Source: Halosegnis rubeus (lineage in GTDB: Archaea > Halobacteriota > Halobacteria > Halobacteriales > Haloarculaceae). Taken from it: 64,000 nt of DNA. The stretch lies in assembly GCF_009184545.1 (NCBI RefSeq), contig NZ_QJOW01000002.1:186001-250000 (forward strand), written 5' to 3'. The notes below the pieces were generated by a model, which was given only the letters and a program-made list of their open reading frames with translations, had not been told where the DNA came from and did not search any database. Of this stretch, positions 47,577-54,871 are shown in pieces. Every line of letters begins with the position of its first letter. The first letter of the stretch is position 1. Made by a program: the position numbers and the translations under genes.

Positions 47577-47807
47577 ATGGGATTGGACGCAAATGATGTC
47601 GACGTGTCGCCCGTAGAGGCGACGCTGTGGGTGCTCGCAATTGCTGTCGTCGTGGCGCTCGCCGTCCCGTGGTTCCTGTGGCGTGACGCGACGATAGTCG
47701 CCGGCCTGCCGGCGTGGATCTGGTGGCACATCGTGTGGATGGGCGTCGCCTCGCTGGTGTTCTACGGCTTCAGCCGCCGCGCGTGGGGACTGGGGGTGGA
47801 GCTGTGA
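47577..47807 (+). CDS. DUF3311 small membrane protein (symporter partner)
   Basis: The 76-residue protein has two membrane helices (about 13-33 and 40-60), with PWFLWRDATIVAGLPAWIWWHIVWM typical of DUF3311. These proteins sit just upstream of SSS-family symporters and probably form a small subunit. ATG 47577 is used; GTG 47568 is an in-frame alternative. Its TGA overlaps the symporter GTG by four bases. Confidence 0.8.
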   Translation: MGLDANDVDVSPVEATLWVLAIAVVVALAVPWFLWRDATIVAGLPAWIWWHIVWMGVASLVFYGFSRRAWGLGVEL

Positions 47808-49321
47808 CCCTCGCCGTCCAACTCGGCGTCCTCGGTCTCTATCTCGTCGCCTCGCTGGCCATCGGACTTATCGCCTACCGCGCGACCGACAGCGCCGCCG
47901 AGGACTACTATCTCGCGGGTCGAACGCTCGGGACCGGCGTCTTGTTGTTCACGACGTTCGCGACCCTGCTGTCGGCGTTCACCTTCTTCGGCGGGCCGAA
48001 CGTCGCGTTCAGCATCGGGCCGGAGTGGCTGCTCGTGATGGGGCTGATGGACGGCATCCTCTTTGCTGTCCTCTGGTACGTCGTCGGCTACAAGCAGTGG
48101 CTCGTCGGGAAGAAACACGGCTACGTCACGATGGGCGAGATGCTGGGCGACCGGTTCGGCTCGTCTCGGCTTCGCGGACTCGTGGCCGGCGTCGGGTTGC
48201 TGTGGCTGTTCCCGTACGTGATGCTCCAACAGCAGGGTGCCGGACAGGCAGTCGTCGGTCTCACCGACGGCGCGATACCCTACTGGGCCGGTGCGGCCCT
48301 CATCACCGTCTTCATGATTCTGTACGTCACCCTCGCGGGGCTGCGTGGGGTCGCGTGGACCGACACCCTCCAGGGAGTGTTCATGCTCGGCGTGTTGTGG
48401 GTCGCGGTCGCGTGGCTCGCCACCAGCGTCGGCGGCATCGGCGCACTCACCGACCAGATGGTCTCAACGAACCCCGAGTTCGGCGCGCTCGGCGGCGGTG
48501 CCTACTCCGTCCAGTACATCCTCGGGACGGCAATCACCATCGCCTTTGGCGTCGCGGCGTTCCCGCAGGTGAACCAGCGGTTCTTCATGGCAAAGCGCGT
48601 CGAGACGCTCAAGCGGTCGTTCGCGCTGTGGCCCGTCCTCGTCGTGCTGCTGTTCGTGCCGGCGTTCCTGCTGGGGGCGTGGGCGTCGGGACTCGGTGTC
48701 GCGGTTCCGGAGGGTGGAAACGTCATCCCCGCCGTCCTGAACGAATACACCCCGGCGTGGTTCACTGCGCTCGTCGTGGCCGGTGCGATGGCCGCGATGA
48801 TGTCCTCCTCCGACTCGATGCTGCTGTCCGGGTCGTCGTACTTCACGCGGGACATCTACCGACCGCTCCTCGCTCCGGACGCGAGCGAGGAGCGCGAGGG
48901 GCGAATCGCCCGCATCGGCGTCGCCGTCTTCGCGACCGCCACGCTCGTTGGCGCACTCCTCACGCAGGGCGGCGGACTCGGTGCAATCGTCGCGCTCGGT
49001 GACACCGCCTTCGGCGGCTACGCGCAGTTGACACTCCCGCTCCTGTGTGCGCTCTACTGGGGTGGAACGACACGGACCGGAATGCTCGCCGGTATCGTCG
49101 TCTCGCAGGCCGTCTATCTCGCCCACGTCGGCGTGTTGAGCGTGCTCGGTATGGAGGGTGTCACCGTCGCCGGCGTCACCCTGCTGAAGGCGTCGTATCT
49201 CACGTGGGAGTACGCGCTGTGGTGTATGCTGCTTTCCCTCGTCGTCACGGTCGGCGTGAGTCTCGTCACGCCGCCGGCGGGCAGTGAGAACCCGGCGAAG
49301 TTCGGCGTCGGCGCCGACTGA
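47804..49321 (+). CDS. sodium:solute symporter (SSS family)
   Basis: From GTG 47804, 505 residues with about 13 membrane helices. Family markers: DYYLAGRTLGTGVLLFTTFATLLSAFTFFGGPNVAF (about 29-64), GLRGVAWTDTLQGVFML (about 180), AAMMSSSDSMLLSGSSYFTRDIYRPLL (about 330-356). It uses Na+ to import an organic solute; the substrate cannot be read from sequence. Coupled to the DUF3311 gene. Confidence 0.92.
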   Translation: MTLAVQLGVLGLYLVASLAIGLIAYRATDSAAEDYYLAGRTLGTGVLLFTTFATLLSAFTFFGGPNVAFSIGPEWLLVMGLMDGILFAVLWYVVGYKQWLVGKKHGYVTMGEMLGDRFGSSRLRGLVAGVGLLWLFPYVMLQQQGAGQAVVGLTDGAIPYWAGAALITVFMILYVTLAGLRGVAWTDTLQGVFMLGVLWVAVAWLATSVGGIGALTDQMVSTNPEFGALGGGAYSVQYILGTAITIAFGVAAFPQVNQRFFMAKRVETLKRSFALWPVLVVLLFVPAFLLGAWASGLGVAVPEGGNVIPAVLNEYTPAWFTALVVAGAMAAMMSSSDSMLLSGSSYFTRDIYRPLLAPDASEEREGRIARIGVAVFATATLVGALLTQGGGLGAIVALGDTAFGGYAQLTLPLLCALYWGGTTRTGMLAGIVVSQAVYLAHVGVLSVLGMEGVTVAGVTLLKASYLTWEYALWCMLLSLVVTVGVSLVTPPAGSENPAKFGVGAD

Positions 49322-49356
49322 CCAACCCTTTTACCCGACTCCGGCCAAGTCGCCGT

Positions 49357-50256
49357 ATGCAGACCCACATCGTCCCGGTCGGCTTCGACTACGACCGGCT
49401 CATCGCCCCCCTGGTCCGGGACCGGCTCACCGTGGACCGCGTCATCCTGCTCGAGGGTGCGGTCGGGAGCGAAGCGAACGTCGAGTACTCCCGAAACTTG
49501 GGCGGAAAACTCGAACAGGACTTCGAGAACCTCCTCGGCGCGGAGACGCAGCGTCACGGCGTCGCCGACGTGTACGACTACGGGGCCGCCTTCGAGCAGG
49601 CGTTCGACCTTATCAACGCGGAACTCGACGCCGGTAACGAGGTGTGGGTGAACGTCTCCTCGATGCCCCGCGTCGTCTCTTTCGCCTTTGCGACCGCGGC
49701 CCACTCCATCGCCGTCGAGCGCAGCGCGGACCGCGACCGCATCCACACCTACTACACCGCCCCTGAGAAGTATCTGGAGACCGAACTCGCCGAGGAGCTG
49801 CGCGCCCAAACCGACCTGCTTGCCGAGGTGCTCGACGGCGCGGGCGACGACGAGCAGGTGCGCGAGCGACTGGAAGCGGGCCGTGAGCTACTCGCGGAGT
49901 TCGACGAGCGGGGCACGACCATCGGCGCAAAGGAGTTCGACGGCAGTCACATCGTCGAGCTTCCGGTGGCGTCGTTCTCGAACGTGAAGCCGTTCGAGGA
50001 GCTAATTCTGTTCACCCTCGGTGAACACGGCGAGTTCGGGTCGGTCTCCGAACTCGCGAAGACGCTCGCCTCGGAGCTGGGCGAGGAGTACACCGACTCC
50101 TTCCGGTCGAAGGTCATCTACAACGTCGACCGGCTCGGCCCGGGCGGAAAGGGGTACGTCGAACAGGAAGAACAGGGGAAATCCTACCGGACGCGGCTCT
50201 CGCGCATCGGTGAGCTGTGGGTGCGCTCGCACACGACCGAGGAGTTCGCCGAGTAG
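49357..50256 (+). CDS. CARF-like winged-helix regulator (HFX_2341/DUF6293 type)
   Basis: The 299 residues have a Rossmann-like front: THIVPVGFDYDRLIAPLVRDRLTVDRVILLEG (about 3-34) and NEVWVNVSSMPRVVSFAFATAAHSIAV (about 95-121), like CARF domains that bind cyclic oligonucleotides. A helical linker follows, then a winged helix (FEELILFTLGEHGEFGSVSELAKTLASELG..., about 210-255). It resembles the haloarchaeal HFX_2341 family. No CRISPR array or cas gene is in the window. A HerA-type ATPase follows 47 bases later. Confidence 0.75.
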   Translation: MQTHIVPVGFDYDRLIAPLVRDRLTVDRVILLEGAVGSEANVEYSRNLGGKLEQDFENLLGAETQRHGVADVYDYGAAFEQAFDLINAELDAGNEVWVNVSSMPRVVSFAFATAAHSIAVERSADRDRIHTYYTAPEKYLETELAEELRAQTDLLAEVLDGAGDDEQVRERLEAGRELLAEFDERGTTIGAKEFDGSHIVELPVASFSNVKPFEELILFTLGEHGEFGSVSELAKTLASELGEEYTDSFRSKVIYNVDRLGPGGKGYVEQEEQGKSYRTRLSRIGELWVRSHTTEEFAE

Positions 50257-50303
50257 CGGTTCCGCGAGCGGGGCTTTTTGTCTCCCGAACACGCAGGCGA
50301 CGC

Positions 50304-52082
50304 ATGACCGACCTCGGGGACTTCGAACCCGGCACGGAGCCGACGAGCGACGCCGACTCGGAGCCAGAACCAACGGGCGAGGAACCGGCGTTCGAGCCGG
50401 TGGATGCGACGCCGCGGGGACGCGACCGCGGGTTGGGGACGCTCTCGGCCGCGGAGGGGCTTTCCGTCGGCGAGGAGGAAGACGACACGCGACTGCGCGC
50501 GTACGTGACCGTGGGCAACCGCTCGCTCGTGCGCGTGGGCAGATACGCCATCGCCGACTACCCCGACGACGAGGCGCTGTTTTGTCGCATCTCGGCGCTG
50601 GAGTACGCACAGGAGTTCGAGTCCGACGACGCAACCGAGATTCACGCCCGGCGAGCCATGCGCAACGACGGTATCGACGAGGCCGACTACAAGCTGATGG
50701 CGACGCTTGAACCCCTCGCGGTGCTCTACTCCGAGGGTGGTGAACTCCGCCGGCGGATGGCGGACCGCGTCCCGAAACCGGAGACCGTCGTCCGGCAGGC
50801 CGAGGACAAAGTCGAGGTGAAGACCGGGCTGAAGGTGCCCGACGACGGCGTCTTCATCGGCCATCTCGCGGTCGGAGGCGAGAAGATCAAGACCGCGGCG
50901 GAGCCGCCGACCGTCGACTACCGACTACAGGACGATTACGATTCGGGCGACCCGCTCGTGTTCCGCCACTCGCTCATCGCCGGCGGGACCGGGTCGGGGA
51001 AGACCCACGCCTCGAAGAACATCCTCAGACAGTATCTCGGCCGGACCTACGAGATGAGCGACGGCCGGACGCCCGGCGCGGCGGTCGTCCAGTTCGACCC
51101 GCAAGACGAGTACGCACAGATGCACGACGACGGCGACTACCCCGACGACTTTGCTCGCAAACTCGACGCCGAGGGGGTCAAACACGGCGGCCACGCCGAC
51201 ACGAAGGCGTTCGTCCCTGCCGTCGGCGGGGCCACCTACGCCGCCGACCACCACCGCGCCGAGCAGGTGGCCTTCACGCTCCCCTTCTCGATGGTCGAGT
51301 CGCGGCCGTGGCTCGTCGCCGGCGCTGGATTGAACGACAATCAGTACCAGGGACTCACGAATCTGCTCGACCGGTTCTTCCGACAACACGGCAACGAGGG
51401 GACGTACGCGCGGTTCCGCTCGTTCCTCGACGATCCCGCACTGCGGGAAGAACTTCACGAGGGCGGCCAGATTCACGAGGCGACTTTCGACGCCGTCAAG
51501 CGGAAGACGCAGGGCTTTGGCGACATCTTCGACGGCGATGCCCCGCCCATCACCGAGCTGGTCCACGACTTCGTCCGACCCGGTGGGCTTACCTGCGTGC
51601 CGACGTACCACATCAACGATACGCGAGCGACGACGACCGTCGTGTTGGCGCTCTCCTCGCTGCTCGTGGACGAGAAGCTCTCGAACGACCCCCGGTACGA
51701 CCGCATCAAGGAGACGCCGCTCGTGCTTGGGATGGACGAGGCGCACAACTTCCTCACCGACGCCGACAGCGTACAGGCCGACAAGGTCATCTCGAAGTTC
51801 TCCGAGGCGGCAAAACAGGGCCGGAAAGAACGGCTCGGCTTATTCTTGATCACCCAGGACCCACAGGACATCGCCGACCCCGTGTTCAAGCAGGTGAACA
51901 CGACTGTCGTCCTGAACCTGGGCGACGAGGACGCCATCAAATCGGTGAACATCCCGTCGACGCTGGAGGGAAAGGTGCCGTACTTCGAGAAGGGACAGAT
52001 GGCCATCTACTCGCCGGACAACTCCGAGCCGGTGGAGGTGGTCGGACTGCCACACTGTGTCACCCGACACGGGCGAGACTGA
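50304..52082 (+). CDS. HerA-type ATP-binding protein
   Basis: ATG 50304 gives 592 residues. An acidic amino stretch leads to a HAS-barrel-like region (LRAYVTVGNRSLVRVGRYAIADYP), then the HerA/FtsK core: Walker A IAGGTGSGKTHASKNIL (about 231-247), VVQFDPQDEYAQM, Walker B LVLGMDEAHNFL (about 472-483), KFSEAAKQGRKERLGLFLITQDP (sensor and arginine finger region). HerA proteins translocate DNA in end resection with NurA. A NurA gene is not nearby; the adjacent CARF-like regulator is notable. Confidence 0.85.
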   Translation: MTDLGDFEPGTEPTSDADSEPEPTGEEPAFEPVDATPRGRDRGLGTLSAAEGLSVGEEEDDTRLRAYVTVGNRSLVRVGRYAIADYPDDEALFCRISALEYAQEFESDDATEIHARRAMRNDGIDEADYKLMATLEPLAVLYSEGGELRRRMADRVPKPETVVRQAEDKVEVKTGLKVPDDGVFIGHLAVGGEKIKTAAEPPTVDYRLQDDYDSGDPLVFRHSLIAGGTGSGKTHASKNILRQYLGRTYEMSDGRTPGAAVVQFDPQDEYAQMHDDGDYPDDFARKLDAEGVKHGGHADTKAFVPAVGGATYAADHHRAEQVAFTLPFSMVESRPWLVAGAGLNDNQYQGLTNLLDRFFRQHGNEGTYARFRSFLDDPALREELHEGGQIHEATFDAVKRKTQGFGDIFDGDAPPITELVHDFVRPGGLTCVPTYHINDTRATTTVVLALSSLLVDEKLSNDPRYDRIKETPLVLGMDEAHNFLTDADSVQADKVISKFSEAAKQGRKERLGLFLITQDPQDIADPVFKQVNTTVVLNLGDEDAIKSVNIPSTLEGKVPYFEKGQMAIYSPDNSEPVEVVGLPHCVTRHGRD

Positions 52083-52145: not shown

Positions 52146-52571
52146 ATGGGAACGAAAATCGTCGTTCCGGTCGACGGCTCGGACCAGTCACAGAAGGCGT
52201 TGGAGTACACGTACGAGCATTTCCCCGACGCGACGGTGACGCTGCTTCACGTCATCAATCCGGCCCGCGCCGGCTACGGCGCACAGGCCGGTCTGCCGAG
52301 CTTCTCCGAGGAGTGGTACGAGGAGGCCGAAGCCGCCGCCGAGGAGCTGTTCGAGGAGGCGAAGGCCGACGCCCCCGAGGAGATGACCGTCGAGACCGCG
52401 ACGGAGGTCGGCCAGCCGGCCCGCACCATCGTCGAGTTCACCGAAGAGAACGGCCACGACAAAATCATCATCGGCAGCCACGGTCGAAAAGGGATCTCCC
52501 GCGTCCTGCTCGGCTCGGTCGCCGAGACGGTCGTTCGGCGCGCACACGTCCCGGTCACGGTCGCCCGGTAA
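52146..52571 (+). CDS. universal stress protein, UspA family
   Basis: A single 141-residue Usp domain: KIVVPVDGSDQSQKALEYTYEHFPDATVTLLHV at the front and IIIGSHGRKGISRVLLGSVAETVVRRAHVPVTVAR at the end with the ATP-binding G-x2-G-x9-G pattern. A GCTTTTTATC element (about 52111-52120) lies about 28 bases before the ATG as a likely TATA box, fitting a leaderless transcript. Confidence 0.92.
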   Translation: MGTKIVVPVDGSDQSQKALEYTYEHFPDATVTLLHVINPARAGYGAQAGLPSFSEEWYEEAEAAAEELFEEAKADAPEEMTVETATEVGQPARTIVEFTEENGHDKIIIGSHGRKGISRVLLGSVAETVVRRAHVPVTVAR

Positions 52572-54224: not shown

Positions 54225-54242
54225 TGCATACAACTGTATGCA
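54225..54242. promoter_or_regulatory. TGCATAC-AACT-GTATGCA palindrome before vapB
   Basis: Perfect 7-base arms with a 4-base centre end one base before the preferred vapB start (54244) and overlap an alternative ATG (54238). VapB antitoxins usually repress their own operon by binding palindromes at the start; position and symmetry fit that role. Confidence 0.6.
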
Positions 54243-54243
54243 C

Positions 54244-54480
54244 ATGTCGAAGAGTATCCGTCTCTCCGAGGACGCCTACGAGCGTCTCGCCGCGCACAAG
54301 CAGGAGGACGAGACCTTCTCAGATGTCGTTCTCCGGCTCGCGGGTGAGCGGTCGTTGCTCGAACTCGCAGGAATCCTCAGCGACGAGGAGGCTGATGAAC
54401 TCCGAGACGCTGTGGCGGAGCGTCGAGAGAGTCGTAGCAAAGAACTCGAAGATATCGCTGGCGAGATGCGAGGGACGTAG
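54244..54480 (+). CDS. vapB: VapB-type antitoxin (UPF0330/DUF217 family)
   Basis: From ATG 54244 (ATG 54238 lies inside the palindrome), 78 residues: an amino-terminal ribbon-helix-helix-like start (SKSIRLSEDAYERLAAHK), SDVVLRLAGERSLLELAGILS and a basic/acidic helical tail that should wrap the toxin. It matches archaeal UPF0330 antitoxins. It precedes the PIN toxin gene by one base, as is usual for VapBC. Confidence 0.88.
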   Translation: MSKSIRLSEDAYERLAAHKQEDETFSDVVLRLAGERSLLELAGILSDEEADELRDAVAERRESRSKELEDIAGEMRGT

Positions 54481-54481
54481 C

Positions 54482-54871
54482 GTGCTCCTTGACACGTCGT
54501 TTCTCATTGACTTGATGAACGGCGACGAGGGAGCAGTTGAGAAGGCGAAGCAATTAGAACGCAATCTTGTCCAGCAACGCCTCTCATCAATGACGCTGTT
54601 CGAGCTGTACTACGGAGTTGCTCGCTCAAGCCAATCCCAAGACGAACGTGAGAAAATCGAGAACATCCTTGCCTCGAAACCAATCCACCCCGCCGATACC
54701 GCCGTGATGCGGAAGGCTGGCCGGCTCTCTGGCGAGTTGGTGAGTGAAGGAAATGCGGTTGGAGATGGGGATGTGATTATCGGCGCGACCGCCGATGTTG
54801 TCGACGAACCAGTCCTCACACGAAACGTAGACGACTTCGAACGTCTGGGTGTTGAGATAGAGACCTACTGA
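54482..54871 (+). CDS. vapC: VapC-type PIN ribonuclease toxin
   Basis: The 129 residues from GTG 54482 have PIN acidic residues: Asp4 in VLLDTSFLID, Glu41 in LFELYYG, then Asp in GDGDVIIGATA and Asp in RNVDDFERL. The enzyme cleaves RNA, often tRNA or rRNA, and is held by VapB. The codon use and GC are visibly lower than in flanking genes, suggesting later arrival. A start overlapping vapB is excluded by the stop and spacing. Confidence 0.88.
   Translation: MLLDTSFLIDLMNGDEGAVEKAKQLERNLVQQRLSSMTLFELYYGVARSSQSQDEREKIENILASKPIHPADTAVMRKAGRLSGELVSEGNAVGDGDVIIGATADVVDEPVLTRNVDDFERLGVEIETY

Follow-up and report, generated by a model that had tools for sequence, protein, structure and literature searches.

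Two neighboring genes in the window (the whole stretch of 64,000 nucleotides that was analyzed) encode a CARF-type regulator of the Crr family and a HerA-type ATPase (hereafter P0002). They are best explained as two unrelated housekeeping genes that became neighbors through a lineage-specific rearrangement; we give this explanation as a whole, including a role for HerA together with NurA, a probability of approximately 0.8. The conserved genomic partner of HerA is NurA, not Crr. An earlier note on this DNA had read the pair as a unit in which a ligand-operated switch controls a HerA motor. This reading is not supported by the distribution of the adjacency, by the breakpoint between the genes, by the promoter-like box that HerA carries, or by the partnership of HerA with NurA.

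Organization of the locus

The features of the locus are listed in Table 1. Both genes lie on the forward strand, and the gap from the stop codon of the regulator to the HerA ATG at 50304 is 47 bp, which agrees with the earlier description of a HerA-type gene within 50 bases of the regulator. A longer ORF for HerA begins with GTG at 50217; this start is less likely than the ATG because the HerA orthologues conserve an N-terminus of the form M[ST]-DLGDF, which aligns with the ATG (alignment A3). Past the HerA-USP-CBS block, a gene pair for a VapB-like antitoxin (PF02697) and a PIN-domain toxin (PF01850) is located at 54238-54871 of the window.

Table 1. Features of the Crr-HerA locus (positions in the window)
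Feature	Position	Strand	Remarks
Sodium:solute symporter (SSF)	47804-49321	+	PF00474; ancestral upstream neighbor of Crr
AT-rich promoter-like box TTTTA	49329-49333	+	-28 to -24 of the Crr start codon
Crr-family regulator gene	49357-50256	+	299 amino acids; ORF present at the position claimed
Rearrangement junction	50241-50262	.	blastn of the window genome against G146; homology jumps from the Crr end to the HerA upstream region
AT-rich promoter-like box TTTTT	50275-50279	+	-29 to -25 of the HerA start codon
HerA-type ATPase gene (P0002)	50304-52082	+	ATG start favored, 592 amino acids
Universal stress protein (USP)	52146-52571	+	PF00582; directly 3' of HerA

Identity and distribution of HerA

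P0002 scored above the Pfam gathering scores for DUF87 (PF01935, 35.7 versus 23.2 bits) and HerA_C (PF05872, 29.2 versus 22 bits), which confirms the assignment as a HerA-type ATPase, and both families were matched by all 10 aligned HerA members at E values up to 0.1. The protein contains GGTGSGKTH and LVLGMDEAH, which we take to be the P-loop and the Walker B motif, respectively, and a KQGRKE segment is conserved in alignment A3. The HAS barrel (PF09378) was found in five of the 10 aligned members (best E value, 0.0064) and is absent from the matches of P0002 itself. P0002 remained far below the cut-off of the NCBIfam equivalog for HerA in DSB repair (NF040819, 24 versus 970 bits) and below those of the anti-phage HerA families NF042943 and NF042944 (37.8 and 39 versus 800 and 850 bits), and its matches to PADLOC HerA profiles were weak (74 bits at best). 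The FtsK_SpoIIIE, TrwB, and AAA_10 profiles also matched HerA members weakly. In sequence searches, the nearest solved relatives are chains labeled ATP-binding protein or HerA (including 9c1m, 8ziq, and 8xau), ahead of 4d2i (HERA), and several chains of this type are presumably parts of defense complexes. A predicted model of HerA built from three sequences was unusable (mean pLDDT, 32.8).

HerA is present in 142 of the 145 class genomes, mostly in a single copy with 64-77% identity, and in all 14 genomes reached through named loci; in haloarchaea outside the genus, the proteins are 64-82% identical. HerA is therefore a core haloarchaeal gene. Given this near-universal distribution, we rejected HerA as a defense gene. 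USP directly follows HerA in 14 of 33 HerA loci, and the two genes thus moved together. The USP-HerA adjacency is more conserved than the Crr-HerA adjacency.

NurA is the conserved genomic partner of HerA

NurA (PF09376) was detected in 144 of the 145 class genomes, in every case above the curated cut-off, and in Haloferax volcanii, which was used as a control. Both HerA and NurA were listed in 135 genomes, 124 of which have them on one contig; the listings behind the adjacency and linkage counts covered 141 of the 142 HerA-positive and 138 of the 144 NurA-positive genomes. NurA lies within 10 kb of HerA in 99 of the 135 genomes, and all 99 have it upstream on the same strand. In 25 of the 124 one-contig genomes, the distance between the two genes exceeds 10 kb; together with the genomes in which they are on separate contigs, such cases number 36 of the 135. 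Among the 14 named-locus genomes, NurA is upstream of HerA on one strand and within 10 kb in 12; the exceptions are Halosimplex aquaticum, whose pair is 13.7 kb apart, and QH_7_65_31, whose pair is on different contigs. Gaps of 836-963 bp separate NurA and HerA in the three Haloferax genomes among these 12, all of them other than H. volcanii. A small DUF7113 gene often sits divergently between NurA and HerA (L174 7712-8047; L173 14203-14547). The window genome has lost the link: NurA is located on contig 7 (G000 contig 7, 503152-504075), 265 kb from HerA, and DUF7113 remained with NurA.

Asp93, Glu183, and Asp201 are invariant in the NurA alignment (A2), and we assume that they correspond to the catalytic acids of Pyrococcus NurA. 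PDB sequence searches with the A2 profile and with a plasmid-borne NurA found no solved NurA. The haloarchaeal pair shares with the HerA-NurA end-resection complex of thermophilic archaea the Pfam families (DUF87/HerA_C and NurA) and the position of NurA upstream on the same strand. By contrast, it is strongly diverged, often has DUF7113 between the two genes, and is split by 265 kb in the lineage of the window.

In thermophilic archaea, Mre11, Rad50, NurA, and HerA are known as a row of genes, and linkage of HerA-NurA to mre11-rad50 is typical of thermophiles. Runs of four overlapping or abutting genes for Mre11-like, Rad50-like, NurA, and HerA proteins were found on plasmids of Haloferax alexandrinus (pBNX82-4; L222 96-7692) and Halocatena salina (L223 167-7725). 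Over 573 aligned columns, the plasmid HerA shares 32% identity with P0002, and the plasmid NurA is homologous to the chromosomal NurA (hhalign, 99.9%; 29% identity) and has the same acidic motifs. This homology and the gene context of the plasmid runs indicate that P0002 belongs to the HerA-NurA family. The plasmid set differs from the core pair in being accessory and in having its own Mre11/Rad50-like genes. Second, diverged NurA-HerA pairs, approximately 200 bp apart and with a HerA 34% identical to P0002, were observed in two genomes (G147 contig 14, 72080-75015; G288 contig 2, 239655-242587).

Two other readings of this linkage were weighed. P0002 could be a stand-alone translocase, for example, a motor for chromosomes or DNA transfer, with the NurA linkage being an inherited order without function. 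Such a reading would accommodate the divergence of P0002 from the NCBIfam repair equivalog, the weak FtsK_SpoIIIE, TrwB, and AAA_10 matches, and the 36 of 135 genomes in which the genes are apart; we nevertheless regard it as unlikely, because all 99 close pairs share order and strand, the diverged plasmid pair keeps the NurA-HerA overlap beside Mre11/Rad50-like genes, and HerA and NurA co-occur almost always (142 and 144 of 145). It seems very improbable that the core HerA-NurA pair serves against viruses and not in repair: although the closest solved relatives include 9c1m, 8ziq, and 8xau, of which several presumably come from defense complexes, HerA is near-universal and well conserved across haloarchaea outside the genus. 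Furthermore, the PADLOC profiles gave nothing for the haloarchaeal NurA beyond one match (E value, 0.006) in one of 13 proteins, and scans of viral contigs found no relatives of P0002 or of the NurA of its own genome.

By analogy with the thermophilic HerA-NurA complex, HerA would form a hexameric ATPase ring that translocates on dsDNA, and it most likely works with NurA by feeding broken DNA ends to this nuclease for 5' resection before recombination.

The regulator is a Crr-family protein with a predicted CARF domain

The regulator matched the NCBIfam equivalog NF051475 ("HFX_2341 family transcriptional regulator") with 570.1 bits against a cut-off of 500, and the match spans residues 1-294 of the 299-residue protein on profile positions 1-298. 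The protein is composed of a CARF domain (approximately residues 1-135), a DUF7776 linker (residues 140-208), and a putative C-terminal DNA-binding region. Pfam matches were HFX_2341_N (PF19810; E value, 1.9e-26) and DUF7776 (PF24989), and the PADLOC CARF3 profile matched with an E value of 1.4e-153. An AlphaFold model built from 35 orthologues (mean pLDDT, 67.8) has a five-stranded N-terminal domain of alternating α/β structure, in which the pLDDT per 10-residue block is 71-93 over residues 21-130, except for 64 at residues 101-110, and 59 at residues 11-20. The top Foldseek matches of the model are nearly all CARF proteins (Cam1, Csm6, Csa3, Can2, and ring nucleases), and the VIA Z-scores against CARF structures are up to 15.4. 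Because the PADLOC and Pfam profiles and the predicted-structure matches agree, the CARF assignment, suspected earlier from the front half of the sequence, is right, and the N-terminal half is predicted to be a CARF Rossmann fold.

The earlier note had further likened the protein to Csa3 as a fusion of CARF to a winged helix. The CARF part of this comparison stands, and the winged-helix part is at most moderately supported: the C-terminus is poorly modeled (pLDDT < 50 in much of residues 262-299), although the NF051475 family is named a transcriptional regulator. A PDB sequence search with the regulator alone yielded only chance matches. With the regulator alignment (A1), it yielded weak MarR-type matches, among them 3nrv (E value, 0.011), a CRISPR-associated chain (3qyf; E value, 0.17), and unrelated chains. 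The DUF6293_C winged-helix profile matched only a paralogue, below its cut-off. This paralogue is a second Crr-like protein of the window genome, 45% identical to the regulator (L002 1498-2388, corresponding to G000 contig 2, 104574-105464), and it also matches the Csa3_N profile weakly. Csa3a of Saccharolobus solfataricus (2wte, 6w11, and 6wxq) shares the CARF fold with the regulator (VIA Z, 11.9-12.2; approximately 120 residues; rmsd, 2.5), and in both proteins, CARF is followed by a DNA-binding region, which is a predicted one in Crr. Crr differs from Csa3a in that it is not linked to CRISPR, has the conserved loop N-[VI]-[SA]-[SA]-M-P-R, and carries the DUF7776 region between its halves.

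The unit had been called uncharacterized, yet the regulator has already been published: its orthologue in Haloferax mediterranei was characterized in 2024 as crr (CRISPR-related repressor), a CARF-type global repressor (PMC11434293). Deletion of crr is described as raising many transcripts and overexpression as repressing cas genes in H. mediterranei; crr is placed on the chromosome away from CRISPR, its locus is reported to contain a transposable element, and homologues are counted in 643 of 861 haloarchaeal genomes (PMC11434293). The gene in the window and HFX_2341/Crr have in common the NF051475 family, the CARF N-terminus, and a chromosomal location away from CRISPR, whereas the window gene has HerA downstream, where the Halorarius outgroup and the same-genus genome G146 have ValRS. 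By extension from the Crr paper, the regulator would act as a ligand-responsive repressor of numerous genes for transport and metabolism. In a sister genome (G131), a TnpB-type transposase-like frame, recognized by eye, starts soon after Crr at the end of contig 9 (L179 1-313).

Crr is present in 140 of the 145 class genomes and Cas1 in 56. Crr occurs in 56 of 56 Cas1-positive and 84 of 89 Cas1-negative genomes, the five Crr-less genomes all being Cas1-negative (tallied by eye), and is thus not tied to CRISPR. No Cas1 was found in a search of the window genome, which bears out the earlier placement of the regulator outside any CRISPR locus and makes a CRISPR-made signal for Crr unlikely. The lack of Cas1 here and the Cas1-independent presence of Crr over 145 genomes led us to reject a CRISPR accessory role for the regulator.

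Crr and HerA were brought together by a rearrangement

Both Crr and HerA are listed in 136 genomes, of which 94 have them on one contig, the same-contig tests being constrained by draft genomes. They lie within 5 kb of each other in one of the 136, the window's own genome. Among the best 80 of 299 Crr relatives (L003-L082), several of whose loci end near Crr, HerA adjoins Crr in L003 only, which comes from the metagenome-assembled genome QH_7_65_31 (G147) of the same genus as the window. Within this genus, four genomes with both genes placed were compared (G131 and G148 could not be judged): the genes are 47-57 bp apart in the window genome (G000), G145, and G147 (50-57 bp in the latter two) and 36.7 kb apart in G146. 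The usual neighbors of Crr within six genes are the symporter (39 of 79 loci), PdxS (38), DnaG (36), and ValRS (25), as counted in 79 of the best 80 Crr loci with a home-made GC3-based gene caller; PdxS and ValRS were named by eye and the others by sequence or Pfam. The adjacency of Crr and HerA, whose conservation the earlier note had put forward as a check, is real but not conserved.

A blastn comparison with G146 located a breakpoint between the two genes. Window positions 49355-50240 correspond to G146 537615-536730, and window 50263 onward corresponds to G146 576138 downward; the sites joined at the junction are about 39.4 kb apart in G146. The reciprocal junction, which joins G146 536616 and 576203, is found at 502.1-502.7 kb of contig 7 in the window genome. 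The order in G146 is SSF-Crr-ValRS-PdxS and, separately, NurA-DUF7113-HerA-USP. In the window genome, SSF-Crr is joined to HerA-USP and, elsewhere, PdxS-ValRS is joined to DUF7113-NurA. The outgroup Halorarius retains Crr-ValRS-PdxS and has NurA 1.6 kb before HerA. These junctions indicate that a 39.4-kb segment was excised by cuts between Crr and ValRS and between DUF7113 and HerA, that its two ends were joined, and that it was re-inserted elsewhere after opening at another point; a series of other rearrangements could yield the same two junctions.

The TTTTT box upstream of HerA lies on the HerA side of the junction, and the same T-rich box is present in G146; the 41 bp upstream of HerA came along with it in the rearrangement. 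AT content is highest at -30 to -26, where the AT fraction is 0.88 in 65 Crr and 0.76 in 45 HerA upstream regions; both sets contain closely related genomes and a few duplicates. An AT peak near -30 to -26 is expected of haloarchaeal leaderless promoters. Because the junction is a breakpoint and HerA brought its own promoter-like box, a Crr-HerA operon is unlikely, and we infer that Crr does not control HerA, although in the new arrangement transcription could continue from Crr into HerA. We rejected a CARF-HerA operon, since the adjacency is not conserved and the junction is a rearrangement breakpoint.

The short gaps on one strand in G000, G145, and G147, the existence of HerA-containing defense systems, and the weak PADLOC matches (74 bits) might suggest a stress or defense module in which ligand sensing by Crr governs the neighboring HerA. 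Such a module is scarcely credible. Of the 136 genomes in which both genes are listed, 135 lack the adjacency, and G146 shows it disrupted even within the genus; the junction is a breakpoint beyond which HerA has its own promoter-like box; and, unlike defense islands, both genes belong to the near-universal core (present in 140 and 142 of 145 genomes).

Implications for haloarchaeal recombination

Published accounts state that H. volcanii lacks HerA and NurA (PMC7776575) and that the two are "not apparent" in the H. volcanii sequence (PMC2700283) and, as late as February 2026, in halophilic archaea (PMC12977600). A further account deduces that evolution toward haloarchaea involved loss of the nurA family and replacement of herA families (PMC7599335). 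NurA and HerA appear as annotations in a Natrinema genome paper (PMC9995536). Our search of largely open-access literature found no title or opening of an abstract describing a haloarchaeal HerA-NurA, although an earlier notice may exist. The genomes contradict the reported absence, with NurA in 144 and HerA in 142 of 145 and the two usually linked.

As the junction in the window illustrates, one rearrangement is enough to mimic an operon, and the result removes a tempting CARF-HerA defense unit. Judging from the sequences, we lean toward the view that haloarchaea carry a divergent, near-universal HerA-NurA end-resection machine, with additional plasmid-borne Mre11-Rad50-NurA-HerA operons in some strains, and that the core pair probably resects DSBs without Mre11-Rad50. 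For end resection in Haloferax, HerA-NurA offers itself as a candidate machine, and because Haloferax is a main genetic model for archaeal recombination, what resects DNA ends there is now directly testable. If this view is true, the core HerA-NurA pair would account for the recombination that persists in mre11 rad50 mutants of Haloferax.
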